NCBI GenBank assembly: GCA_025927835.1
Contig: JAICKR010000009.1
Span: forward strand, 1-39,584
DNA: 39,584 nucleotides
From: Jatrophihabitans sp.
GTDB lineage: Bacteria > Actinomycetota > Actinomycetes > Mycobacteriales > Jatrophihabitantaceae
Reading direction: 5' to 3'
Under the pieces are notes generated by a model. That model was not told the DNA's origin. It made no database searches and saw only the letters and a list, made by a program, of their open reading frames with translations. This document shows, piece after piece, positions 24,643 through 33,614 of the stretch (positions within the stretch are counted from its first letter, which is position 1; each line of letters begins with the position of its first letter). The position numbers and the translations under genes were made by a program.

Positions 24643-24682
24643 GTCCGCCCCTAGGTATGCGTGGGCGTGCCTAGGGGCGGAC
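24643..24682. terminator. Hairpin after the adhesin-like gene, likely terminator
   Basis: A 13-bp perfect inverted repeat (24643-24655 with 24670-24682, arm GTCCGCCCCTAGG) encloses a 14-nt loop. It lies 19 nt downstream of the adhesin stop and separates that gene from the arsR promoter on the same strand. No U-tract follows. Confidence 0.65.
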
Positions 24683-24701: not shown

Positions 24702-27700
24702 TCAGCTGCCGAGCTTGCCGTTCCCGGTCGCGGCGAAGTAGTTCACCGTCGCTGCCGTCGACGCGGTGTAGGCGTGTCCCGGGCTCAGGAAGAGCAGGAA
24801 GTAGCTCGACGAGCACGTCGCGACACCGCTCGCGTTCGTGAGCGCCGCGCACGTGGCCCGGAACGTGCCGTTGAACGCCACCAGCACGCTCACCTTGATG
24901 CCGGCCACGGGCAGGTTGTTCGCCGTGTTCGTCACCGTGGTGGTGAACGTGTACTTGTGCAGGTGGTTCGCGTCGGCGGTCGTGTTCGTGTGCGTGTCGA
25001 TGGCGAGCGTCGCCTTCGTGACCGTGAACGGCCCGTTGGCATAGACGACCCGGTAGTTGCTCGCGCCGGTGCCCGCCAGCGACAGCCCGCTGCACGTCTT
25101 CGCGTCGATCGTGTACGTGTTGGCCGCCAGCGACGCGCTGATCGCGACGTTGCCGGTCAGCTTCGTGCAGCTCAATGTCCCGGCGAACGACAACCCGCTG
25201 GGCAGCGTCGCCTGCGGCGTGAACGTCGGCGTGCCGCCGTAGGCCGCGGTGCCGGTCGCGGTCACGGTGACCGGCTTCGGCGTCACGGTGAAGGGACCGT
25301 TGGCGTACAGGATCTGGTAGCCGAAGGCCTGCGTCCCGGTCAGGGTCAGCCCGCTGCACGTCGACGTGTCGACGATGTAGGAACCGACCGGCAGGTTGGC
25401 GTCGATCGGGCTCGGGCCATTCACCTGCGTGCACGTCAGCGTCCCCGTGACGCTCACGTTCGGCGGCGGGGTCGAGATCGGCGTGAAGGTGGGGGTGCCC
25501 TGGTACACCTGGGTGCCCGTCGCCTGCACCTGCAGGTCGGCCTTCGACACGGTGAACGAGCCGCCGCCGAGGACGAGGTGGTAGCTGCTCGCGTTCGGCC
25601 CGGTCACGACGATGCCACCGCAGGTGAGCGGGTCGATCGTGTAGCTGCCCGGCGCCAGCGACGGCTTGATCAGCACGTTGCCCGCGAGGTAGGTGCAGCT
25701 CATCGTCCCCGACAGCGTCACGCCGGCCGGCAGGCTCACCGACGCCACGAACGACGGCGCGCCGCCGAACGTCTGGCTGCCCGAGGCCGTGACGGTGAGG
25801 ACGCCCACCTTCACCTGGAACGTACGCTGCGCCTGCGGCGCCGGCAGGAAGTTGGCGTTGCCGGGCTGGTTCGCGTTCACCGTGCACGCGCCGGCCGCCA
25901 CGATGTGGATCGTGTTCCCGGAGATCGTGCACACCGACGGCGGACCTGCCGAGTAGGTGACGGGCAGGCCGGACGAGGCGGTCGCGGAGATGTTGAAGTC
26001 GGGCGCGCCGAAGGTCTGGTCGCCGATGATCGGGAACGTGATCGTCTGCGGCACCCGGTAGTGCGCGAACAACGTCGTGGTCGTCGGGCCGGGAGCGAGC
26101 AGCGCGGACAGGTCCGTCGACGTGGTCACCTGGGTGCCGCCGGAGGCCGCCGTGTACCAGCCGAGGAAGATTCCGCCGGTCGGCGGGTTCACGATCGGGA
26201 ACGTGGCGCCGGAAGCCAGCGCGGTCGACGCGTACACGTGCACGGGTGCCGGGTTCGGGTCCGGGCCGCCGTTCGTGTCGAAGACCAGCTTGTAGTTGTG
26301 GTGGGACACCGTGACGATGCCGGCCCCGCCGTCGCCGCCGCCCTGGATCGTGCCGCCGCTGCTGAGGAAGATCACGCCGTCGTTCTGCAGCGTCCCGGCG
26401 GTGGCCCCCGCGGTGATCGTGCCCTTGTCGAGGATCGAGCCGGTGCTCGTGTTCGTCGCGGTAGCGCCGGCCGGAATGCGCAGCGTCGCGCCGGACGGAA
26501 TGGTCAGGCCGCCACCGTTGCTCAGCGTGCCGAAGGCGCCACCGGCGCCGCCGGCACCCACGGCACTGGCGCCGCCACCGCCGTCCGCGGCGCTGACCGC
26601 GCCCGGCGAAGCGGTGATCAGCGCGCCCCCCGAGCCGTTACTGCCGCCGCCGATGCCGGCGCCGCTGGAGCCGCCGGCCGCGACGAGCGCGCCACCCGTG
26701 ACGCTGACCGTGCCGCCGCTGCCGCTGCTGTCGCCGCCACCGACGCCGGCCGCGTTGGCGCCGCCGGTGGCCTGCACCGCTCCGCCCGTGACGGACAGGG
26801 AGCCGCCGTTGCTGATTCCGCCGCCGCCGATACCGGACCCGCCGAATCCGCCCTGCGCCACAAGGACCGTCGGCGCGGTCGTCGGATCGGGATCGCCGGA
26901 CACGGTGACGTTGCCGCCGGGTCCGAGATCACCGCCGCCGACACCAGCCCCTTCATGCCCGCCGGTGGCGGTCGTGAGGCCGCCCGAGAAGGTCTCGTTG
27001 CCGCCACCGCCACCGTCGCCGCCGCCGATACCGGACCCGCCGTCGCCGCCGGTAGCCGTCACGTGGCCACCACTCACCGACGTCGTACCGCCGATCCCGG
27101 CCGAGCCGCCGCCGATTCCGGCGCCGGAGGCGCCGCCGGTGGCGGTGATCGAGCCACCCGAGTAATCCTGCGTGCCGCCGGCACCACCCGGCGTCGAGCC
27201 GTTGTTGCCCCCGCCGCCGATACCTGCCGCGTTCGAACCGCCGTGGGCGGTGACCGAGCCGCTGATCACAGAGATCGACGCGGCGTCCTCGGTCTGGTTG
27301 CCGCCGATGCCGGCACCGTTGTCACCGCCGGTGGCATCGAGCGAGCCGAGGCCGGTGGTGTCCTCGACCGTCAGCGACGCTGCGCCCGCGACGCGAATGC
27401 CGGCGAGGTTGGCGTTCACGTTGTTGATGGTGAGCGTCTGGCCGTGCAGGTCCAACGTCTTCGCCAACGTCTGCGAAACATCCGGGTGCGTGCCGTCGCC
27501 GATCGTGACGTTCGCGCCGAGCACGACCGTGTCGTTCGTGCCGTCGGCGAGCGCGGTCTTCAACTGCGCCGCCGTCGTGACGGTCGTCGACACCGCCCCG
27601 GCCGACGGTGCGGCGATGAAGGCGAGCCCGGCGCAGAGCGCGAGCGCCCCGGTCGCGGAGATCCACCGCATGGTGTTGTGGCGAGCGTCGTCACGCGCAA

Positions 27701-27719
27701 CAAGACGATGCTTCGACAT
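24702..27719 (-). CDS. Large secreted adhesin-like protein with Gly-rich, InlB-type and Ig-like repeats
   Basis: 1005 residues. A signal peptide covers about 1-42 (hydrophobic core ALALCAGLAFIAAPSAGA, cleavage near AVS). Residues about 45-125 look like the start of a beta-helix. Residues 130-360 hold eight GAGIGGG-like repeats. A B-repeat of the InlB kind spans about 470-555 (LVFDTNGG ... FLGWYTAASGG). A further Ig-like module spans 557-637, and three MBG-like repeats of about 88 residues (640-903), each with a Cys pair, precede a C-terminal module. No LPXTG or membrane anchor is seen, so it is probably released or held non-covalently. Such parts occur in bacterial adhesins; the ligand is unknown. 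ATG 27719 follows GGGGGCAG. Confidence 0.85.
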   Translation of the reverse strand: MSKHRLVARDDARHNTMRWISATGALALCAGLAFIAAPSAGAVSTTVTTAAQLKTALADGTNDTVVLGANVTIGDGTHPDVSQTLAKTLDLHGQTLTINNVNANLAGIRVAGAASLTVEDTTGLGSLDATGGDNGAGIGGNQTEDAASISVISGSVTAHGGSNAAGIGGGGNNGSTPGGAGGTQDYSGGSITATGGASGAGIGGGSAGIGGTTSVSGGHVTATGGDGGSGIGGGDGGGGGNETFSGGLTTATGGHEGAGVGGGDLGPGGNVTVSGDPDPTTAPTVLVAQGGFGGSGIGGGGISNGGSLSVTGGAVQATGGANAAGVGGGDSSGSGGTVSVTGGALVAAGGSSGAGIGGGSNGSGGALITASPGAVSAADGGGGASAVGAGGAGGAFGTLSNGGGLTIPSGATLRIPAGATATNTSTGSILDKGTITAGATAGTLQNDGVIFLSSGGTIQGGGDGGAGIVTVSHHNYKLVFDTNGGPDPNPAPVHVYASTALASGATFPIVNPPTGGIFLGWYTAASGGTQVTTSTDLSALLAPGPTTTTLFAHYRVPQTITFPIIGDQTFGAPDFNISATASSGLPVTYSAGPPSVCTISGNTIHIVAAGACTVNANQPGNANFLPAPQAQRTFQVKVGVLTVTASGSQTFGGAPSFVASVSLPAGVTLSGTMSCTYLAGNVLIKPSLAPGSYTIDPLTCGGIVVTGPNASSYHLVLGGGSFTVSKADLQVQATGTQVYQGTPTFTPISTPPPNVSVTGTLTCTQVNGPSPIDANLPVGSYIVDTSTCSGLTLTGTQAFGYQILYANGPFTVTPKPVTVTATGTAAYGGTPTFTPQATLPSGLSFAGTLSCTKLTGNVAISASLAANTYTIDAKTCSGLSLAGTGASNYRVVYANGPFTVTKATLAIDTHTNTTADANHLHKYTFTTTVTNTANNLPVAGIKVSVLVAFNGTFRATCAALTNASGVATCSSSYFLLFLSPGHAYTASTAATVNYFAATGNGKLGS
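25011..25802 (-). repeat. Three Ig-like (MBG-type) repeats in the adhesin gene
   Basis: Encodes residues 640-903 as three units of about 88 residues. Each has T-A-x-G-x-Q/A-x-F/Y-x-G-x-P-x-F at its start, S/T-C-T in the middle, a second Cys about 20 residues later (PLTCGG, TSTCSG, AKTCSG) and a closing G-(P/S)-FTV. The two Cys per unit suggest one disulfide each, fitting an exported protein. Confidence 0.8.
26640..27332 (-). repeat. Gly-rich GAGIGGG repeats in the adhesin gene
   Basis: Encodes residues about 130-360. The core A/S-G-I/V-G-G-G recurs near 136, 165, 200, 229, 258, 295, 324 and 354, a period of about 29-30 residues with one 37-residue gap. Between cores runs a T-A-T-G-G turn and a V-S-V-T/S-G-G strand. 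A right-handed beta-helix or a similar solenoid is likely. The repeat gives open frames on the other strand as well. Confidence 0.85.
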
Positions 27720-27935
27720 GTGCTGCCCCCTAGAGCCGGACGAATCCGTGCTGCACCAAATCGAGTCAGTGCACTCTAGGAATCCGACGAAGAACGCGCA
27801 ATTCGTGAATGGCACGCGACGGAATTGTCCGGGTGTAAATGGACGGTGAGTCCGAAACCGCTCGACTTGCCAACTTGGCGCACTTACCCGAATATCGGGC
27901 ATCGGATTTTTCCGGTTGCGCGTTTTGGGGGGTCC
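27720..27935. promoter_or_regulatory. Divergent promoter region between the two giant surface-protein genes
   Basis: The longest gap in the window (216 bp) and less GC-rich than its surroundings. Two short palindromes lie near the + gene: GCCAAcTTGGC (27869-27879) and CCCGAATATCGGG (27887-27899), 7 nt apart, which could be operators. Each gene has a G-rich stretch before its ATG (GGGGGCAG on the minus strand; GGGGGGT on the plus strand) acting as a ribosome binding site. No confident -10/-35 pair was found on either strand. Confidence 0.45.
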
Positions 27936-30900
27936 ATGAAGCGCAAAGCGCTGGTGTCGCTTGTCCTGATCAGCTCGCTCACCGCGTGGGGGCTCAGTTT
28001 CGCGAGCCCGGCATCGGCCAGTGACAGCAGCGGGACACCGCTGACGCCACCGTCCGCGTGCGCGTCTCCCCCGTCGAGCACCGACGCGACACCGGAGAAC
28101 CGCGATCGGTTCGTTCAGCTCTGGACGCCACGCGTCGAGGACAAGTCCTGGTTCAGCCACTTCGTCGGCCTGACGAGTGTGCCGGACGACATCAAGGCCG
28201 AGGGCTTCAACGACATGGACTCCGCGACGCAGGGTTGGCTTGTCGCCTGCCTCGTCGACAAGCTCGTCTCCGACTCGAGCACGTCGTCCAGCCAGACCGA
28301 CATCGCGAACTACCAACTCGCGCTGGACTCGGTGATCTTCGGCAAGAGCGCGCTCGACGAGCTCAAGCACAAGCTCAACGAGGTCCCGCCGACACCGCCG
28401 GGAAGCCCCGGCCCCGATCTGACCAAGGCCGCACTCAACGGCCTGGTCTCGCGGCTCTCCTCGCAGCCGGGCGTGACCTCGGCGTCGCTGCCGCACACCG
28501 ACACGACCCTTGCCGGGCCCACGCTTTCGAGCACGCCGGCGCCCAACCCGGCCGGCACGCAGGCCGGCGGGCGCATCGGTGCGGTGCCGACCCTCGCCCA
28601 CGCGAACGGCCCGCAGCCGCTCGCGCTCGCCAACAGCCTGCAATCGATCATCAACGCCCCGCTCATCCAGCTGGTGCTCACCGCACTCGCCGACCTCGAG
28701 CAACTGATCGCCAACATCCAGGCCAAGCTGTTCACGCTGCCGGTGCTGAACCTGCTGAGCACGCTGTTCTACAAGGTCTGCGCGGAGTCGGCGACGCAGC
28801 CGCTCGCGTGCAGCGTGTCGCTGCCGGTCGGCATCCCGGTGCCGGTCGACGTCAACGGTGACCACTTCCCCGACGTGCTGGCCGACCTCGCGCCGACCGT
28901 TCCGACGGGGCTCGACTTCGGCGTGCAGTTCAACGTGACGCGCCTCGGCGGCACGGGCCCGCTGCCCGCACACATCTTCTTCGTCTATGACATCCCCTTC
29001 GCGAACAAGCGCCTCGAGTTCGGCTACGACGGCCGCGCATCGTCACTCGCCAACGTCACGACGGCGCAGGTCACCGTGAAGAACGTCTTCCAGGCGCTCA
29101 CCGGCGACGTCAACGTGCAGGCGAAGATCAACAGCAACAAGCCGGGTGCGGTCGAGGCACTGACCTTCGCGATCAAGGACCTGGTCGGAGGCTCGGCGGG
29201 ACACCCGCCGACAGAAGCGAACCCGGTCGCGGGCGCGGTGCAGTTCAGCCCGATGCCGACCGCGCTCACCATGGGCGCGCACCTGATCCACAACATCTCG
29301 GACGAGGACATCTTCACCGTCGGGTCGAGCACCCCGTCCACAGTGAGCGCGGTGATCGACCAGGACACCACGACGACGTCACCGCAGAGCCATCGTGAAT
29401 TCACCGCGCTCGTCGACCAGCTGCCGACCTCGGTCAGCGTCGACGTGACGCACGACGGCAAGACGCAGAACATCAGCTACAACGCCAGCGCGCCGATCAA
29501 CCACGTGCAGGCCACCGACACGGCCGTCGGTGACATCAACCATCCCGGCTCGTACACGAGAAGCGTGTACGACGTGCAGGGCGTGCCGAGCTCGGTGAAC
29601 GTCACGCTGAGCGGCGCGCAGGACATCCTGTACTCGGCCAACGCTGTGATCCCGCAGGTCACGTTCTCGACGCAGACCTACCTGGAGTCCGTCCTGCAGC
29701 AGGAGATCACCGCGCAGGCACAAGGCGTGCCGGCCCAGATGCACGTCACGGACGTCACCGGCGATACGTCGACGATCACCTATGACGCTAGTTCGGTGCT
29801 CACCAGCGTCGCGCTGTCGATGTACGACCTGACAATGGACCAGACGAACCTGACCGCGACCGCGACCGGCATCCCGAAGCACATCCAGTTCTTCATGGTG
29901 AAGAGCACCGGTCTGTACGACCTCACAACCGACACCGGAATCTCGCTCATCACCGCGACGCTGACCCGCGGAGGCCCGCCCGGCACGGTGACGATCCTGC
30001 CGGACCCCGGCGTCGATCACGCCACGATCTACAAGCGCGGTACCGAGATCGGCGTCGACTTCCAGCTGTCCGGGTTCACGTCCGCGCACTTCCAGAACAC
30101 CGACGACAAGATGGTCGTCGGGCTCGGGCTGAACCCGGGCGGGCAGGCGTTCGACGCGATCGCCGACCTGGACAGCCCGAACGTGTACGCGACCGCGCAC
30201 ATCACCCAGCTGCCCTCGTCGATCTCGATCACCGACGACGCGAGCACGTCGACGTACACATACAGCGCATCGAGCCCGATCAACGCCGGAATCCCGGGCA
30301 CCCCGGACGTGGCGGCCAGCATCACGCTGCGCCCCGGCACCGACACCACGCTCGATCCCAGTGACGACAACCTGTCCGCCGGCATCACGAACATCCCGGC
30401 GACGATCGCGCTGCAACTCGATTCGGACCACTCGAAGATCGACTGGAACGCGTCCGACGACACCGGCAAGGTCGAGGTGTCCGCGCACCTCAGCGCGGCC
30501 ACGCTCGGCCTGGACCGCGGCATCGACGCAGGGCTGACGATCACCGACATCCCGGCGACGTGGAGCGCGACGTACGGCGACGGCAACGTCGACTTCAACG
30601 CGCCGACTCCCGGCATCGGCAGCATCGACGCATGGGTCACCAACCACGGCACGCCCGAGACGGATACCGGCGACTTCCTCGGCGCGTTCTTCGACGAGCC
30701 GAGCGGCGACCTCGATGCCGCGCTGCACATCAGCAACCTGCAGCGGGCGCACTTCGAGAAGATCACCGACGTGCACGGCGGCGGGTTCACCGCCGACCTG
30801 GACATGGGCAACCACAGCAACTTCGACTTCTTCGCGACGGTCAATCTCGGTTCGCCGACCGTCACGACGAAGCTCACCGCCACGGGCAGCCTTGACCCGC

Positions 30901-32489
30901 TGCCGGCGTCGATCCACCTCCAGAGCGACGGCGGGCGGATCCGCTACACCGGCGACACCAACCCGACGCTGACCCTGTCGGTCGGCGCGGGTGACCCGGC
31001 TGCACTCGCCGGCATCGGCCCGCTCGCGATGCCGGTCCAGGGCGTGATCCTTCGGGACGGTGGCAGCAGCTCCGCACCGGCGGTCGCCGCCACGTTGAAG
31101 CTGACCGGACTGCCCGACTCGCTCGACCTCAACACGCCGGCCGGCACCTACACCGTGGGCAACTTCGCCCCGACCACGCCGGTCATCACGGTCGACGCCG
31201 TCCTGAACACCATCGCGGCGCAACCGCTAAGCATCGCGTTGAGCCAGGACACGAGCAACCCGAGCGGCCCCAACACCCCGATCTCGTTCGTGTTCGGTCC
31301 GTTCGTCTCCTCGACCGACGGCGACGGCACGCACCACATGGGCGTCAACTACACCGCGAGCCGGGACATGAACGCGTTCGACGCAGAGGTCACCTACGGC
31401 CACAGCGACGACGCGATGCTGCACATCAGCAACATCCCGGGCGGGGCCGCGCCGTCGATCAGTGTCAACACCGCGTTCGGCGACACCGACACGGTCGACG
31501 TCGACATGACGCGCGGCATCGCACAGATCACGGCGTCCTACCGGCACGTCGGCGACACGACGTTCGGCGGCTCCGTCGATCTGACGAACGTGCCGAGTTC
31601 GGTGCACCTGAAGTTGGGCAGCCAGACGAACAGCACGACGGACTCCGACGGCACCAAGGGCGCGACCGCCCCTGAGTTCACGTTCACCGCCAGTGCGCCG
31701 CACATGAACATCGACGCGTTCGCGAACGCGAGCATCGTCAACGCCAGCGCGGCCGTCACGTTGAAGATCGAGGACATGGGCTCGACGATCACCGGTGACC
31801 TCCAGGGCACGACGTTGAACATCACATCGACGCCCAACACCGGGCTGTTCATGATCGACGCCACGGCGAAGGTGCACATCGACGTCGACCTCGGCTTCAG
31901 CTTCGGGCCGTTCGTCAACACCGGCACGCTCGGCATCGATATCGACGTCCGGGACATCACCGTCAAGTTCACGGACTTCAGCTCGATCGGGCTGGCGCTC
32001 GGCGTCACCACGGGATTGACGGGTCACTTCGCCACGTTCACCTTCGGGCTCGACCTGAACATCACGCTGAGCATCCTCGACAACCTGGACTTCGACTTCT
32101 CGTTGCCGATCATCGGCGACGAGAGCTTCAACCTGGTGTCGCTGCACGACCCGAGCGACGACAGCAGGCCGTTGGTCATTCCGTTCGACGACGTGGTCCC
32201 GAGCTGGCACATCCAGACGAACACGTTCGACACCATCTTCAGCCTGCCGGTGTTCGAGATCCCGTTCATCATCGAGTGCCACGTGGGCGTCAAGACCCGG
32301 CCGGGCCCCGGCCACGACGTGGGATCACCGTTCACGCTGACCGGGCCGCCGCCGTCGGACGGGAACGACCCGCCGGCCTACCTGATCACGCCGGGCGTGT
32401 TCGGCCTCTCCGGCTTCATCATGGACATAATCGGCTTCTTCGAGTCGCCTTACGGCAACGACATCGAGCCGGACATCGGCTGCAGCTGA
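27936..32489 (+). CDS. Giant secreted protein made of a degenerate beta repeat, function unknown
   Basis: 1517 residues. Signal peptide 1-29 (MKRK then a hydrophobic core, ASPASAS|D). Residues 30-200 form a helical, Ser/Pro-rich region. Residues 235-275 are hydrophobic and amphipathic. Residues 300-330 contain DVNGDHFPDVLADL, a calcium-type DxNxDxxxD loop. From about 436 to 1280 a degenerate unit of 48-70 residues recurs, centred on (L/I/V)P(S/A)(S/T)(I/V) and, about 20-25 residues later, Y-x-A-S. The end (1300-1517) is beta-rich with alternate polar and hydrophobic residues, and has two Cys. No anchor motif or named domain is recognised. It is divergent from the adhesin gene and converges on a lipoprotein gene with a 3-bp gap, so a role at the cell surface is likely. 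Confidence 0.8.
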   Translation: MKRKALVSLVLISSLTAWGLSFASPASASDSSGTPLTPPSACASPPSSTDATPENRDRFVQLWTPRVEDKSWFSHFVGLTSVPDDIKAEGFNDMDSATQGWLVACLVDKLVSDSSTSSSQTDIANYQLALDSVIFGKSALDELKHKLNEVPPTPPGSPGPDLTKAALNGLVSRLSSQPGVTSASLPHTDTTLAGPTLSSTPAPNPAGTQAGGRIGAVPTLAHANGPQPLALANSLQSIINAPLIQLVLTALADLEQLIANIQAKLFTLPVLNLLSTLFYKVCAESATQPLACSVSLPVGIPVPVDVNGDHFPDVLADLAPTVPTGLDFGVQFNVTRLGGTGPLPAHIFFVYDIPFANKRLEFGYDGRASSLANVTTAQVTVKNVFQALTGDVNVQAKINSNKPGAVEALTFAIKDLVGGSAGHPPTEANPVAGAVQFSPMPTALTMGAHLIHNISDEDIFTVGSSTPSTVSAVIDQDTTTTSPQSHREFTALVDQLPTSVSVDVTHDGKTQNISYNASAPINHVQATDTAVGDINHPGSYTRSVYDVQGVPSSVNVTLSGAQDILYSANAVIPQVTFSTQTYLESVLQQEITAQAQGVPAQMHVTDVTGDTSTITYDASSVLTSVALSMYDLTMDQTNLTATATGIPKHIQFFMVKSTGLYDLTTDTGISLITATLTRGGPPGTVTILPDPGVDHATIYKRGTEIGVDFQLSGFTSAHFQNTDDKMVVGLGLNPGGQAFDAIADLDSPNVYATAHITQLPSSISITDDASTSTYTYSASSPINAGIPGTPDVAASITLRPGTDTTLDPSDDNLSAGITNIPATIALQLDSDHSKIDWNASDDTGKVEVSAHLSAATLGLDRGIDAGLTITDIPATWSATYGDGNVDFNAPTPGIGSIDAWVTNHGTPETDTGDFLGAFFDEPSGDLDAALHISNLQRAHFEKITDVHGGGFTADLDMGNHSNFDFFATVNLGSPTVTTKLTATGSLDPLPASIHLQSDGGRIRYTGDTNPTLTLSVGAGDPAALAGIGPLAMPVQGVILRDGGSSSAPAVAATLKLTGLPDSLDLNTPAGTYTVGNFAPTTPVITVDAVLNTIAAQPLSIALSQDTSNPSGPNTPISFVFGPFVSSTDGDGTHHMGVNYTASRDMNAFDAEVTYGHSDDAMLHISNIPGGAAPSISVNTAFGDTDTVDVDMTRGIAQITASYRHVGDTTFGGSVDLTNVPSSVHLKLGSQTNSTTDSDGTKGATAPEFTFTASAPHMNIDAFANASIVNASAAVTLKIEDMGSTITGDLQGTTLNITSTPNTGLFMIDATAKVHIDVDLGFSFGPFVNTGTLGIDIDVRDITVKFTDFSSIGLALGVTTGLTGHFATFTFGLDLNITLSILDNLDFDFSLPIIGDESFNLVSLHDPSDDSRPLVIPFDDVVPSWHIQTNTFDTIFSLPVFEIPFIIECHVGVKTRPGPGHDVGSPFTLTGPPPSDGNDPPAYLITPGVFGLSGFIMDIIGFFESPYGNDIEPDIGCS
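29403..31760 (+). repeat. Array of degenerate LPSSI-type beta repeats in the giant protein
   Basis: Encodes residues about 490-1275. The anchor (L/I/V)P(S/A/T)(S/T)(I/V/L) is seen at residues 496, 550, 759, 820, 872, 989, 1059 and 1219, and weaker forms at 598 (VPAQM) and 646 (IPKHI). Units at about 712 (FTSAHF) and 935 (LQRAHF) have lost the motif but keep the spacing. The nucleotide sequences are not alike, so the repeats are old or strongly diverged. Confidence 0.7.
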
Positions 32490-32492
32490 GCG

Positions 32493-33614
32493 CTACCAGA
32501 CGGAGACCTCGGCGAGCAGGCTCTCGTCCAGTCCGCCCGGTGACCGCACCCGCACGTAGCGGGCCTGCGGCTCCCCGGGCGGGCTGAGGGCGATGGTCGG
32601 GCCCGTCGCGGTGGCGACCCGCGTCCAGGTGTGGCTGTCCGCCGAGATCTCGATGACCACCGTGCCGGCGACGCCGCGCACCACGATGAGCGAGACGCGG
32701 CGCGCCTGACCGACCAGATCGACGAGCACCCCGGTGACGACCTTGCCGTTGCCGGCGACGAGGTGGGACGGCGACTCGAGATCACCGTCGGTGGCGACGC
32801 ACACGGTCTGCCGGAACCGCTCCAGCGGCGGTGCCGCGCCGGTGAGCGCGTAGCAGGGCCGCTGCCGCGACGGCGGGGTCCCGGCCGTCGGCCGCAGCGC
32901 CCGGCGCGAGGACAGGTAGACCGCGTGCACGCCGTGCCCGAGATCGCTGCGCGCAGTCACCGCAGCCTGGGCGGCGTGGTCCTCGAGAACGCGAGCATCG
33001 ACCTGCGTGTGGGTGCCGGCCGCGGACTGCGTCCAGAGCGAGGCGCCGCGTGCGCTGTCGAGCAGTTGCGCGGAGTAGTCGGTATCGGCACCGCGCAGCG
33101 CACGCCACGACATGCGGAAGCGGGGCGGTCCGGACGTCGTCGGGGCGACCTGCAGGCCCGCGTCCCACAGCCGCGCGGCGGGAAGCCGCACGGTGTTCTG
33201 CTGCACCTTGAACCGCAGCGTCGTGCTGGCGGCGGCGTGGGCGCCCTTCGGGTCGGCGAACACGACGTCGATCGTGTCGGCGTTGCCGGCGATGCCCTGC
33301 GTGTCGGAGCCCTTGATGCGGAACCGGAAGGTGCCGTTGCCATCGGTGGTCGCCGTGAAGCCCTTGCGGCAGATGGCCGGCGCGGCGGGGAACAGGCAGA
33401 CGCCGCCGAGCGTGCCCAGCGTGAGCGCGGAGCCGACGAGGAACTCGCCGAAGTCGGCCTCCTTGTACAGGTGCACCTGCACCTTGCTCAGCGGGGCACC
33501 GGTCGCGCTGAGCGCGCGTCCGGTGATCACCACCGCCGCCCCCGGCTTCACATGACTGACGTCGCAGCCGGCCGCGACGAGCATGGCGACCAGGACGAGT
33601 GCCCACCTCCGCAT
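32493..33614 (-). CDS. Lipoprotein with carboxypeptidase-regulatory-like and F5/8-like domains
   Basis: A 373-residue exported protein. MRRWALVLVAMLVAAGCD has a clear lipobox (LVAAGC), so it is probably lipid-anchored. Residues 30-145 resemble a carboxypeptidase-regulatory/transthyretin-like fold (VVITGRALSATGAPLSKVQVHLY ... TATTDGNGTFRFRIKG) with an inserted Cys pair. A middle region of unknown type follows. The last ~100 residues resemble a discoidin/F5/8 type C fold (VIEISADSHTWTRVATATG ... ARYVRVRSPGG), which binds sugars or membranes. The closing convergent gap to the giant protein is 3 bp. ATG 33614 is supported by TATCCT 6 nt upstream. Confidence 0.8.
   Translation of the reverse strand: MRRWALVLVAMLVAAGCDVSHVKPGAAVVITGRALSATGAPLSKVQVHLYKEADFGEFLVGSALTLGTLGGVCLFPAAPAICRKGFTATTDGNGTFRFRIKGSDTQGIAGNADTIDVVFADPKGAHAAASTTLRFKVQQNTVRLPAARLWDAGLQVAPTTSGPPRFRMSWRALRGADTDYSAQLLDSARGASLWTQSAAGTHTQVDARVLEDHAAQAAVTARSDLGHGVHAVYLSSRRALRPTAGTPPSRQRPCYALTGAAPPLERFRQTVCVATDGDLESPSHLVAGNGKVVTGVLVDLVGQARRVSLIVVRGVAGTVVIEISADSHTWTRVATATGPTIALSPPGEPQARYVRVRSPGGLDESLLAEVSVW

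Follow-up and report, generated by a model that had tools for sequence, protein, structure and literature searches.

A giant secreted protein gene and a lipoprotein gene that recur together in Actinomycetota: a possible surface module

Three genes for exported proteins lie next to one another in a 39,584-nt stretch of Jatrophihabitans sp. DNA (assembly GCA_025927835.1, contig JAICKR010000009.1, positions 1 to 39,584; hereafter the window). They code for an adhesin-like protein, a giant repeat protein and a lipoprotein, and the initial annotation read them as one surface locus in which the lipoprotein could anchor one of the others. The question is whether the three genes belong together and, if only some of them do, what the association could mean. 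Comparison with other genomes points to the giant and the lipoprotein. We put forward, with slightly more doubt than trust, that these two form a two-part module at the surface, where the lipoprotein would dock the giant. The source is a 3.3-Mb draft genome of 255 contigs, 76% complete, in which the window is contig 12. The two genes are:

27936..32489, plus strand: giant secreted protein, 1517 amino acids (aa), ATG at 27936; unnamed actinobacterial family with relatives found by hidden Markov model (HMM)
32493..33614, minus strand: lipoprotein, 373 aa, convergent with the giant gene, 3-bp gap

All three genes are real and their coordinates fit, 24702 being the adhesin-like stop and 33614 the lipoprotein ATG. 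That they are packed together is correct as to adjacency and the 3 bp between giant (plus) and lipoprotein (minus), but the adhesin-like gene (minus) and the giant gene (plus) diverge, with 216 bp between their starts. A single three-gene operon is ruled out by gene orientation. Each protein has a signal-peptide-like start by eye, in agreement with the claim that all are exported: MRWISATGALALCAGLAFIAAPSAGA for the adhesin-like protein, MKRKALVSLVLISSLTAWGLSFASPASA for the giant and MRRWALVLVAMLVAAGC for the lipoprotein, whose lipobox AAGC also passes the lipobox rule. The sortase motif LPxTG was sought in the three window proteins and is found in none, again as first described.

Relatives of the giant fall into close and distant ones, separated by a gap in score (at least 796 versus at most 253 bits; in a second search at least 839 versus at most 154 bits). 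The closest named relatives come from Pseudonocardiales metagenome-assembled genome (MAG) RYN_117 (the G008 locus) and Jatrophihabitans MAG RYN_142 (the G002 locus). G008 and G002 are the close giants in the same family as the window (3 of the 101 nearest genomes, window included), the order adds G531 and G532 (5 of 298, including the window, G002 and G008), and the class adds G143, G222 and G260 (6 of 394, including the window and two weak ones). Further close giants are found in Thermocatellispora (L045), in Nonomuraea (L186), in five species of genus g146 from the family of G143 (12 of 130, including G143 itself and six weak ones), and in G1059, G1066 and G1068 from the genus of G531 (4 of 16, including G531). 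Distant giants turn up at phylum level (5 of 346, window included) and within G143's family; the window's own genome has one as well, the C49 protein of more than 3,872 aa. The giant family is wide but patchy, and its members in Actinomycetota range from about 760 to more than 3,870 residues.

The gene 3′ of the giant was scored at 16 close loci; G002, where the contig ends, was dropped, and Nonomuraea, which is negative, stands outside the count. A lipobox is present in this gene at 13 of the 16 loci (the window and 12 of 15 others), representing 6 of 9 genera, versus 18 of 216 other genes there. The binomial P by genus is 2.3e-5, to be read with the reserve that some of these loci had themselves suggested the hypothesis. 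G143 was scored lipobox-negative, yet the gene that overlaps its giant gene on the 3′ side shares 42% identity with a gene of G008 that has a lipobox.

The lipoprotein genes occur in three arrangements. In the first, a lipoprotein of the window's kind (F5/8 type) is convergent with the giant, with gaps of 3-84 bp, at all seven loci where both were found; beyond the order search, no genome-wide search for the F5/8 type covered G143 or the genomes of g146 and g25. These loci are the window, G008 (another genus of the same family) and the five of five g146 genomes with a close giant, so that the convergent pair spans two families and three genera (g1, g7 and g146). In the second, an Ig-like (immunoglobulin-like) lipoprotein of 135-163 aa directly follows the giant on the same strand at a distance of -7 to +17 bp, in six of six loci (G531, G532, G260, G1059, G1066 and G1068, of which G531, G1059, G1066 and G1068 are one genus). 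In the third, a small lipoprotein of another family lies near the pair in G008 and in three of the five g146 genomes, and directly after the giant in G143; it was not found in the window's own, 76% complete genome. This small lipoprotein family (A6) is Ala-rich and lies near the giants at L171, L173, L174, L037 and L088.

The neighbourhoods themselves have little else in common. In a BLAST comparison of the window genes with eight of them (L037, L038, L088 and L171-L175) only the giant and the lipoprotein are strongly shared, at 40-50% identity for the giant (26% for G002) and 43-53% for the lipoprotein. The other five matches, at 27-34%, are between common enzyme families. The g146 flanks are shared among themselves, as expected within one genus. 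The identity matrices of giant and lipoprotein correlate with r 0.78 (21 pairs from 7 loci).

A pair that is kept need not be a pair that works together. Giant and lipoprotein could act separately, as an exoprotein and an unrelated wall-binding lipoprotein, with their genes staying side by side because the converging transcripts are regulated jointly or because the two genes were transferred together. We hold this to be unlikely. It fits strict convergence in seven of seven loci rather than an operon, the patchy occurrence (3 of the 101 nearest genomes, 5 of the 298 of the order) and the distant giants that have no lipoprotein. Against it stands the second type of lipoprotein, directly behind the giants of another branch and on the same strand, which is hard to explain without function.

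The proposal of a docking lipoprotein directs attention to the domains of that protein, which are as follows.

33564..33575, minus strand: lipobox AAGC, residues 14-17 (lipobox rule and by eye)
33165..33563, minus strand: N-terminal mature domain, transthyretin/Ig-like (CarboxypepD_reg-like; PF13620 in family members)
32496..32792, minus strand: C-terminal F5/8 type C / CBM32-like domain (Foldseek, PF00754)

From its signal peptide and lipobox Cys the protein is predicted to be a bacterial lipoprotein of the Lsp type. The lipobox is followed by the CarboxypepD_reg-like domain, an unmatched region and the F5/8 type C domain. At E up to 0.1, PF13620 (CarboxypepD_reg) is detected in five of eight family members (best E 2.2e-4) and PF00754 in seven of eight (best E 2.7e-6). 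The AlphaFold model of the lipoprotein has a mean predicted local distance difference test score (pLDDT) of 41.1; its last 77 residues (model residues 281-357) reach block values of 62-82, and Foldseek matches them to CBM32, fucosidase and factor VIII C2 with probability 1.00 and E about 1e-3. The C-terminus is thus modeled as a discoidin jelly-roll fold. Of the sugar-binding C-terminus proposed earlier, the CBM32/F5/8 fold is retained and binding of sugar or phospholipid is only putative; the window protein scores 13.8 bits against PF00754, below the gathering cut-off of 28.2. The likeness to F5/8 type C domains consists of this partly confident fold and, when the family is aligned, an ending of the type DL(G)...AR(Y/F)(V/L)R(V/L)...SVW. 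The differences are that the domain is here carried by a lipoprotein without a recognised catalytic domain, and that the window member falls below the Pfam cut-off.

In both main kinds of lipoprotein the mature N-terminal domain resembles CarboxypepD_reg, Big_1 and transthyretin-like domains, although the matches are weak and the window type has a large insertion with two extra cysteines. When the mature N-terminal domains of the Ig-like and window-type lipoproteins were compared, hhalign gave a probability of 47.6% and E 1.9e-4, versus 1.0% and E 0.052 for the control, the remainder of the window type against the Ig-like kind. Full-length profiles of 8 and 6 lipoproteins gave 90.2% and E 1.5e-6, signal peptides included; an earlier comparison of three sequences each was not significant (0.7%, E 0.082). 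A common ancestry of the N-terminal domain in both main kinds is plausible. A match of the first lipoprotein profile to Spc34 in the PDB (E 7.7e-4) disappeared with a deeper profile and is regarded as chance. In G055 a lipoprotein relative without a giant (L091, 8652-10319) bears a long tail rich in proline, plus a hydrophobic segment at the C-terminus; these are perhaps another way of anchoring.

The giant displays the following features, all on the plus strand.

27936..28019, plus strand: signal peptide, judged by eye, cleavage site approximate
28848..28874, plus strand: single loop DVNGDHFPD, residues 305-313, FG-GAP/Ca-loop-like (consensus DxTGDxxPD)
29406..31700, plus strand: repeat region, residues 491-1255, 10 detectable copies of a unit of about 33 columns, consensus ATVDDLPSSVDVTLDTAKGTVTYTASAPIGSID
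32277..32486, plus strand: C-terminal segment, containing Cys1448, the moderately hydrophobic residues 1483-1501 and, close to the end, Cys1516

The repeat copies were detected by iterated HMM at domain E<0.05. The DxTGDxxPD motif is present in 15 of 16 other close giants, the exception being G260, which begins at a contig end, and the DVNGDHFPD loop may bind metal. Searches of Pfam (best FG-GAP, E=0.43), NCBIfam (no weighty match, best E 0.11), PHROGs and PDB sequences (nothing meaningful in either) placed the giant in no known family. The beta-type hydropathy periodicity is 1.10, versus 0.82 (standard deviation 0.03) in shuffles, or 8 standard deviations above; in residues 101-200 hydropathy favours helix. 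The protein is acidic (D+E 10.2%, K+R 3.8%). Across 28000-32000, over the giant gene, GC content is about 66.5-67% with an AT skew of up to 0.22, and elsewhere it is mostly 69-74%.

A Cys is found among the last ten residues in 25 of 30 giants versus 6% expected, a count that omits G002 and the C49 protein, both cut by contig or stretch ends. This terminal Cys is often the very last residue, including in distant giants, which end GYVC or IHFC. The C-terminal cysteines may form a disulphide. Large exported repeat proteins also include the LPXTG/sortase adhesins; the difference is that none of the 32 giants, two of them incomplete at that end, has an LPxTG tail. The hydrophobic stretch 1483-1501 of the window giant likewise does not correspond to an LPXTG anchor, with no LPxTG before it and no basic tail after it. 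A stretch resembling PDF.LDII..F.SPYGN (32382-32438 in the window) is seen in the branch with F5/8-type lipoproteins and in G143, and is less hydrophobic in most of the second branch. It is a possible docking or membrane-contact segment.

What kind of structure such a sequence would form was addressed by an AlphaFold model of residues 300-1499, built on a four-sequence alignment. Mean pLDDT is 50.9 and the predicted template modelling (TM) score (pTM) is 0.39; the model consists almost only of strands, is best at about 520-650 (block values 58-78) and has strands spaced at roughly 13 residues through model residues 92-356. The first Foldseek rows contain ApoB100, teneurin, EMC1, the LPD-3 lipid bridge and LptD, and siderophore receptors are likewise among the rows; TM-scores are at most 0.25 and most are about 0.1 or lower. 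In VIA-align, porins, ApoB and OspA come up with Z of 8.0 or less, a level its notes call common, and the lack of a family there excludes nothing. Because the model is poor and the rows of both searches are mixed and weak, only a beta-rich architecture is claimed for the giant, and no particular fold.

A different role was also considered. The giant could be a secreted beta-groove that carries lipids or hydrophobic compounds across the wall, with the lipoprotein as docking or hand-off partner at the membrane end, resembling TamB or VPS13 without belonging to them. We consider this improbable. The nearly all-strand model with strong hydrophobicity on one face agrees with it, as do ApoB100, LPD-3 and LptD among the first rows; but teneurin, EMC1 and siderophore receptors rank alongside, porins and OspA score as high as ApoB in VIA-align, the pLDDT, pTM and TM-scores are as low as given above, and beta-sandwiches are also expected to show one hydrophobic face. 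Gene neighbourhoods divide in the same way. The G143 giant (L088) lies among FadD8, EchA19, ChsH2-like and thiolase genes, the G002 giant (L038) is near an acyl-CoA synthetase-like gene (best model below cut-off), and the lipoprotein-less giants of G222 and Nonomuraea follow a gene for a PEMT/ICMT-like (phospholipid/isoprenylcysteine) methyltransferase (L089 6814-7320, L186 3929-4435). Elsewhere the neighbours are unlike these, and the window has an amidase, an enoyl-CoA hydratase, an ABC ATPase and an ArsR-type regulator. At L038 a cut 66-aa frame also resembles a ChsH2-like protein by eye, with no Pfam match.

The comparison with TamB/AsmA and the RBG bridges (VPS13, BLTP) rests on the predicted length of the giant, its nearly all-beta content and one hydrophobic face per strand. 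It differs in its signal-peptide-like start, which reads as cleavable by eye, and in the lack of a Pfam match to AsmA, TamB or chorein: the window giant was searched to E 1, and one further close giant and two distant ones to E 0.1, with none of the TamB/AsmA/RBG families among the matches. TamB and AsmA are taken here as described in part of PMC6791001. The RBG unit of eukaryotic lipid bridges is five-stranded, according to part of PMC7613979, and the strands of the giant can be grouped in this way only putatively. Still less probable is a more far-reaching form of this idea, in which single-membrane actinobacteria would have a groove-shaped lipid or steroid bridge outside the cytoplasmic membrane, made of a secreted giant of repeating beta-meander units on a dedicated lipoprotein and invented independently of TamB/VPS13.

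There remains the third gene, with its hairpin.

24702..27719, minus strand: adhesin-like secreted protein of 1005 aa, with possible starts at 27719 and 27671 (alternative upstream start MSKHRL)
24643..24682, minus strand: hairpin after the adhesin-like gene, terminator-like

The adhesin-like protein has Gly-rich repeats and weak Pfam matches named Flg_new and Pectate_lyase_5, to PF09479 (E 5.9e-5, below cut-off) and to the pectate-lyase-like PF20585 (20.7 of 24.3 bits, E 4.8e-4, also below cut-off). Its relatives occur in 9 of 101 near genomes, window included. In G001, a 98% complete genome of the same genus, an adhesin relative was found and a giant was not; the relative in G008 is on another contig than the giant. 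A BLAST search of the 225 genes called in the 17 other giant loci (E cut-off 1e-3) detected no adhesin relative, with the G008 contig reaching only 2.9 kb upstream of its giant. These neighbourhoods rule out the adhesin as part of the module, and the gene seems to be a mere neighbour, outside the conserved pair.

The hairpins described at the gene ends are borne out after the adhesin-like gene, where the folding energy is -45 kcal/mol (z -6.7, none of 200 shuffles equally good) and no second exact copy occurs in the 76%-complete genome; at the giant/lipoprotein junction there is none (folding z -0.12). It is very improbable that the three genes form one adhesion locus. All three products are exported and the genes are adjacent here, but no adhesin relative was detected in the 17 other giant loci, and the adhesin-like gene diverges from the giant and has its own terminator-like hairpin. 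The expectation that the three genes stay together is thus borne out for giant and lipoprotein (seven of seven loci where both were found) and fails for the adhesin. Likewise, the suggestion that the lipoprotein anchors a neighbour has genomic support where that neighbour would be the giant, in the close branches; the adhesin is not kept with the pair.

Further observations concern the giant family outside the paired loci. The distant paralogue in the window's own genome (L094 2-11617, G000 contig 49, minus strand; truncated where the retrieved sequence ends, with more than 3,872 aa) has a 340-aa secreted-looking gene 13 bp upstream with no Pfam match, and a similar two-gene order is seen in G762 (L120). 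Distant giants in G659 and G687 (L117, L118, L119) come after secreted-looking proteins with an N-terminal ‘HPG...NDGSETW’-like region. The protein at L117 7512-9053 was scanned and has NHL repeats; its counterparts at L118 and L119 look alike by eye. In G1066 a broken second giant copy (contig 1, 7401570-7405110) lies at the opposite end of the 7.4-Mb contig from the intact one.

Several points weigh against a module of giant and lipoprotein. Among distant giants a lipobox neighbour is found in only 1 of 14; it is a likely membrane protein 536 bp away and probably a false positive. Only the close branches show the pairing. Even there, no lipoprotein lies 3′ of the giant in G222, Thermocatellispora (L045) or Nonomuraea (L186), and conversely lipoprotein relatives are present in G026, G053 and G055, where no giant was detected. 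The convergent order gives no co-transcription, and the correlation of the identity matrices mostly reflects the split between two families. Genes were called with our own codon-based caller and lipoboxes scored by our own rule, both home-made, and the structure models of giant and lipoprotein (pLDDT 50.9 and 41.1) are both poor. The giant could also have an anchor of its own. The Kyte-Doolittle limit for a membrane span is about 1.6, and residues 1483-1501 have a mean of 1.68; the equivalent stretch has 1.32-1.58 in seven close relatives (G008, G143 and g146) and 0.37-1.37 in the other eight measured. The giant is perhaps not unanchored and may make a weak membrane contact at its C-terminus. 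Because of this stretch and the 1 in 14 pairing among distant giants, the module was given lower weight and separate action more.

With this reserve, the two-part module remains the explanation we prefer. The lipoprotein would sit by its lipid on the outer face of the cytoplasmic membrane, its transthyretin/Ig-like N-terminal domain docking the giant and its F5/8-type C-terminal domain binding wall or envelope glycan. The giant would be a long rod of beta-rich repeats that reaches out through the wall, with one metal-loop motif where the repeat part begins and with cystines at both ends of the rod, and would serve as a surface scaffold or stalk, a role preferred because it requires the fewest assumptions. 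In the branch of G531, G532 and G260 the smaller lipoprotein, with the Ig-like domain only, would do the docking, and the adhesin-like gene would be an unlinked neighbour.

No description of this giant/lipoprotein pair was found among the literature records listed, judged by titles and the starts of abstracts. The giants represent an unnamed family; its closer members come with two, or perhaps three, kinds of partner lipoprotein gene. Relatives in isolate-type genomes offer targets for pull-down experiments, and the recurring pair may help to explain how giant proteins are kept at the surface of bacteria that lack an outer membrane.

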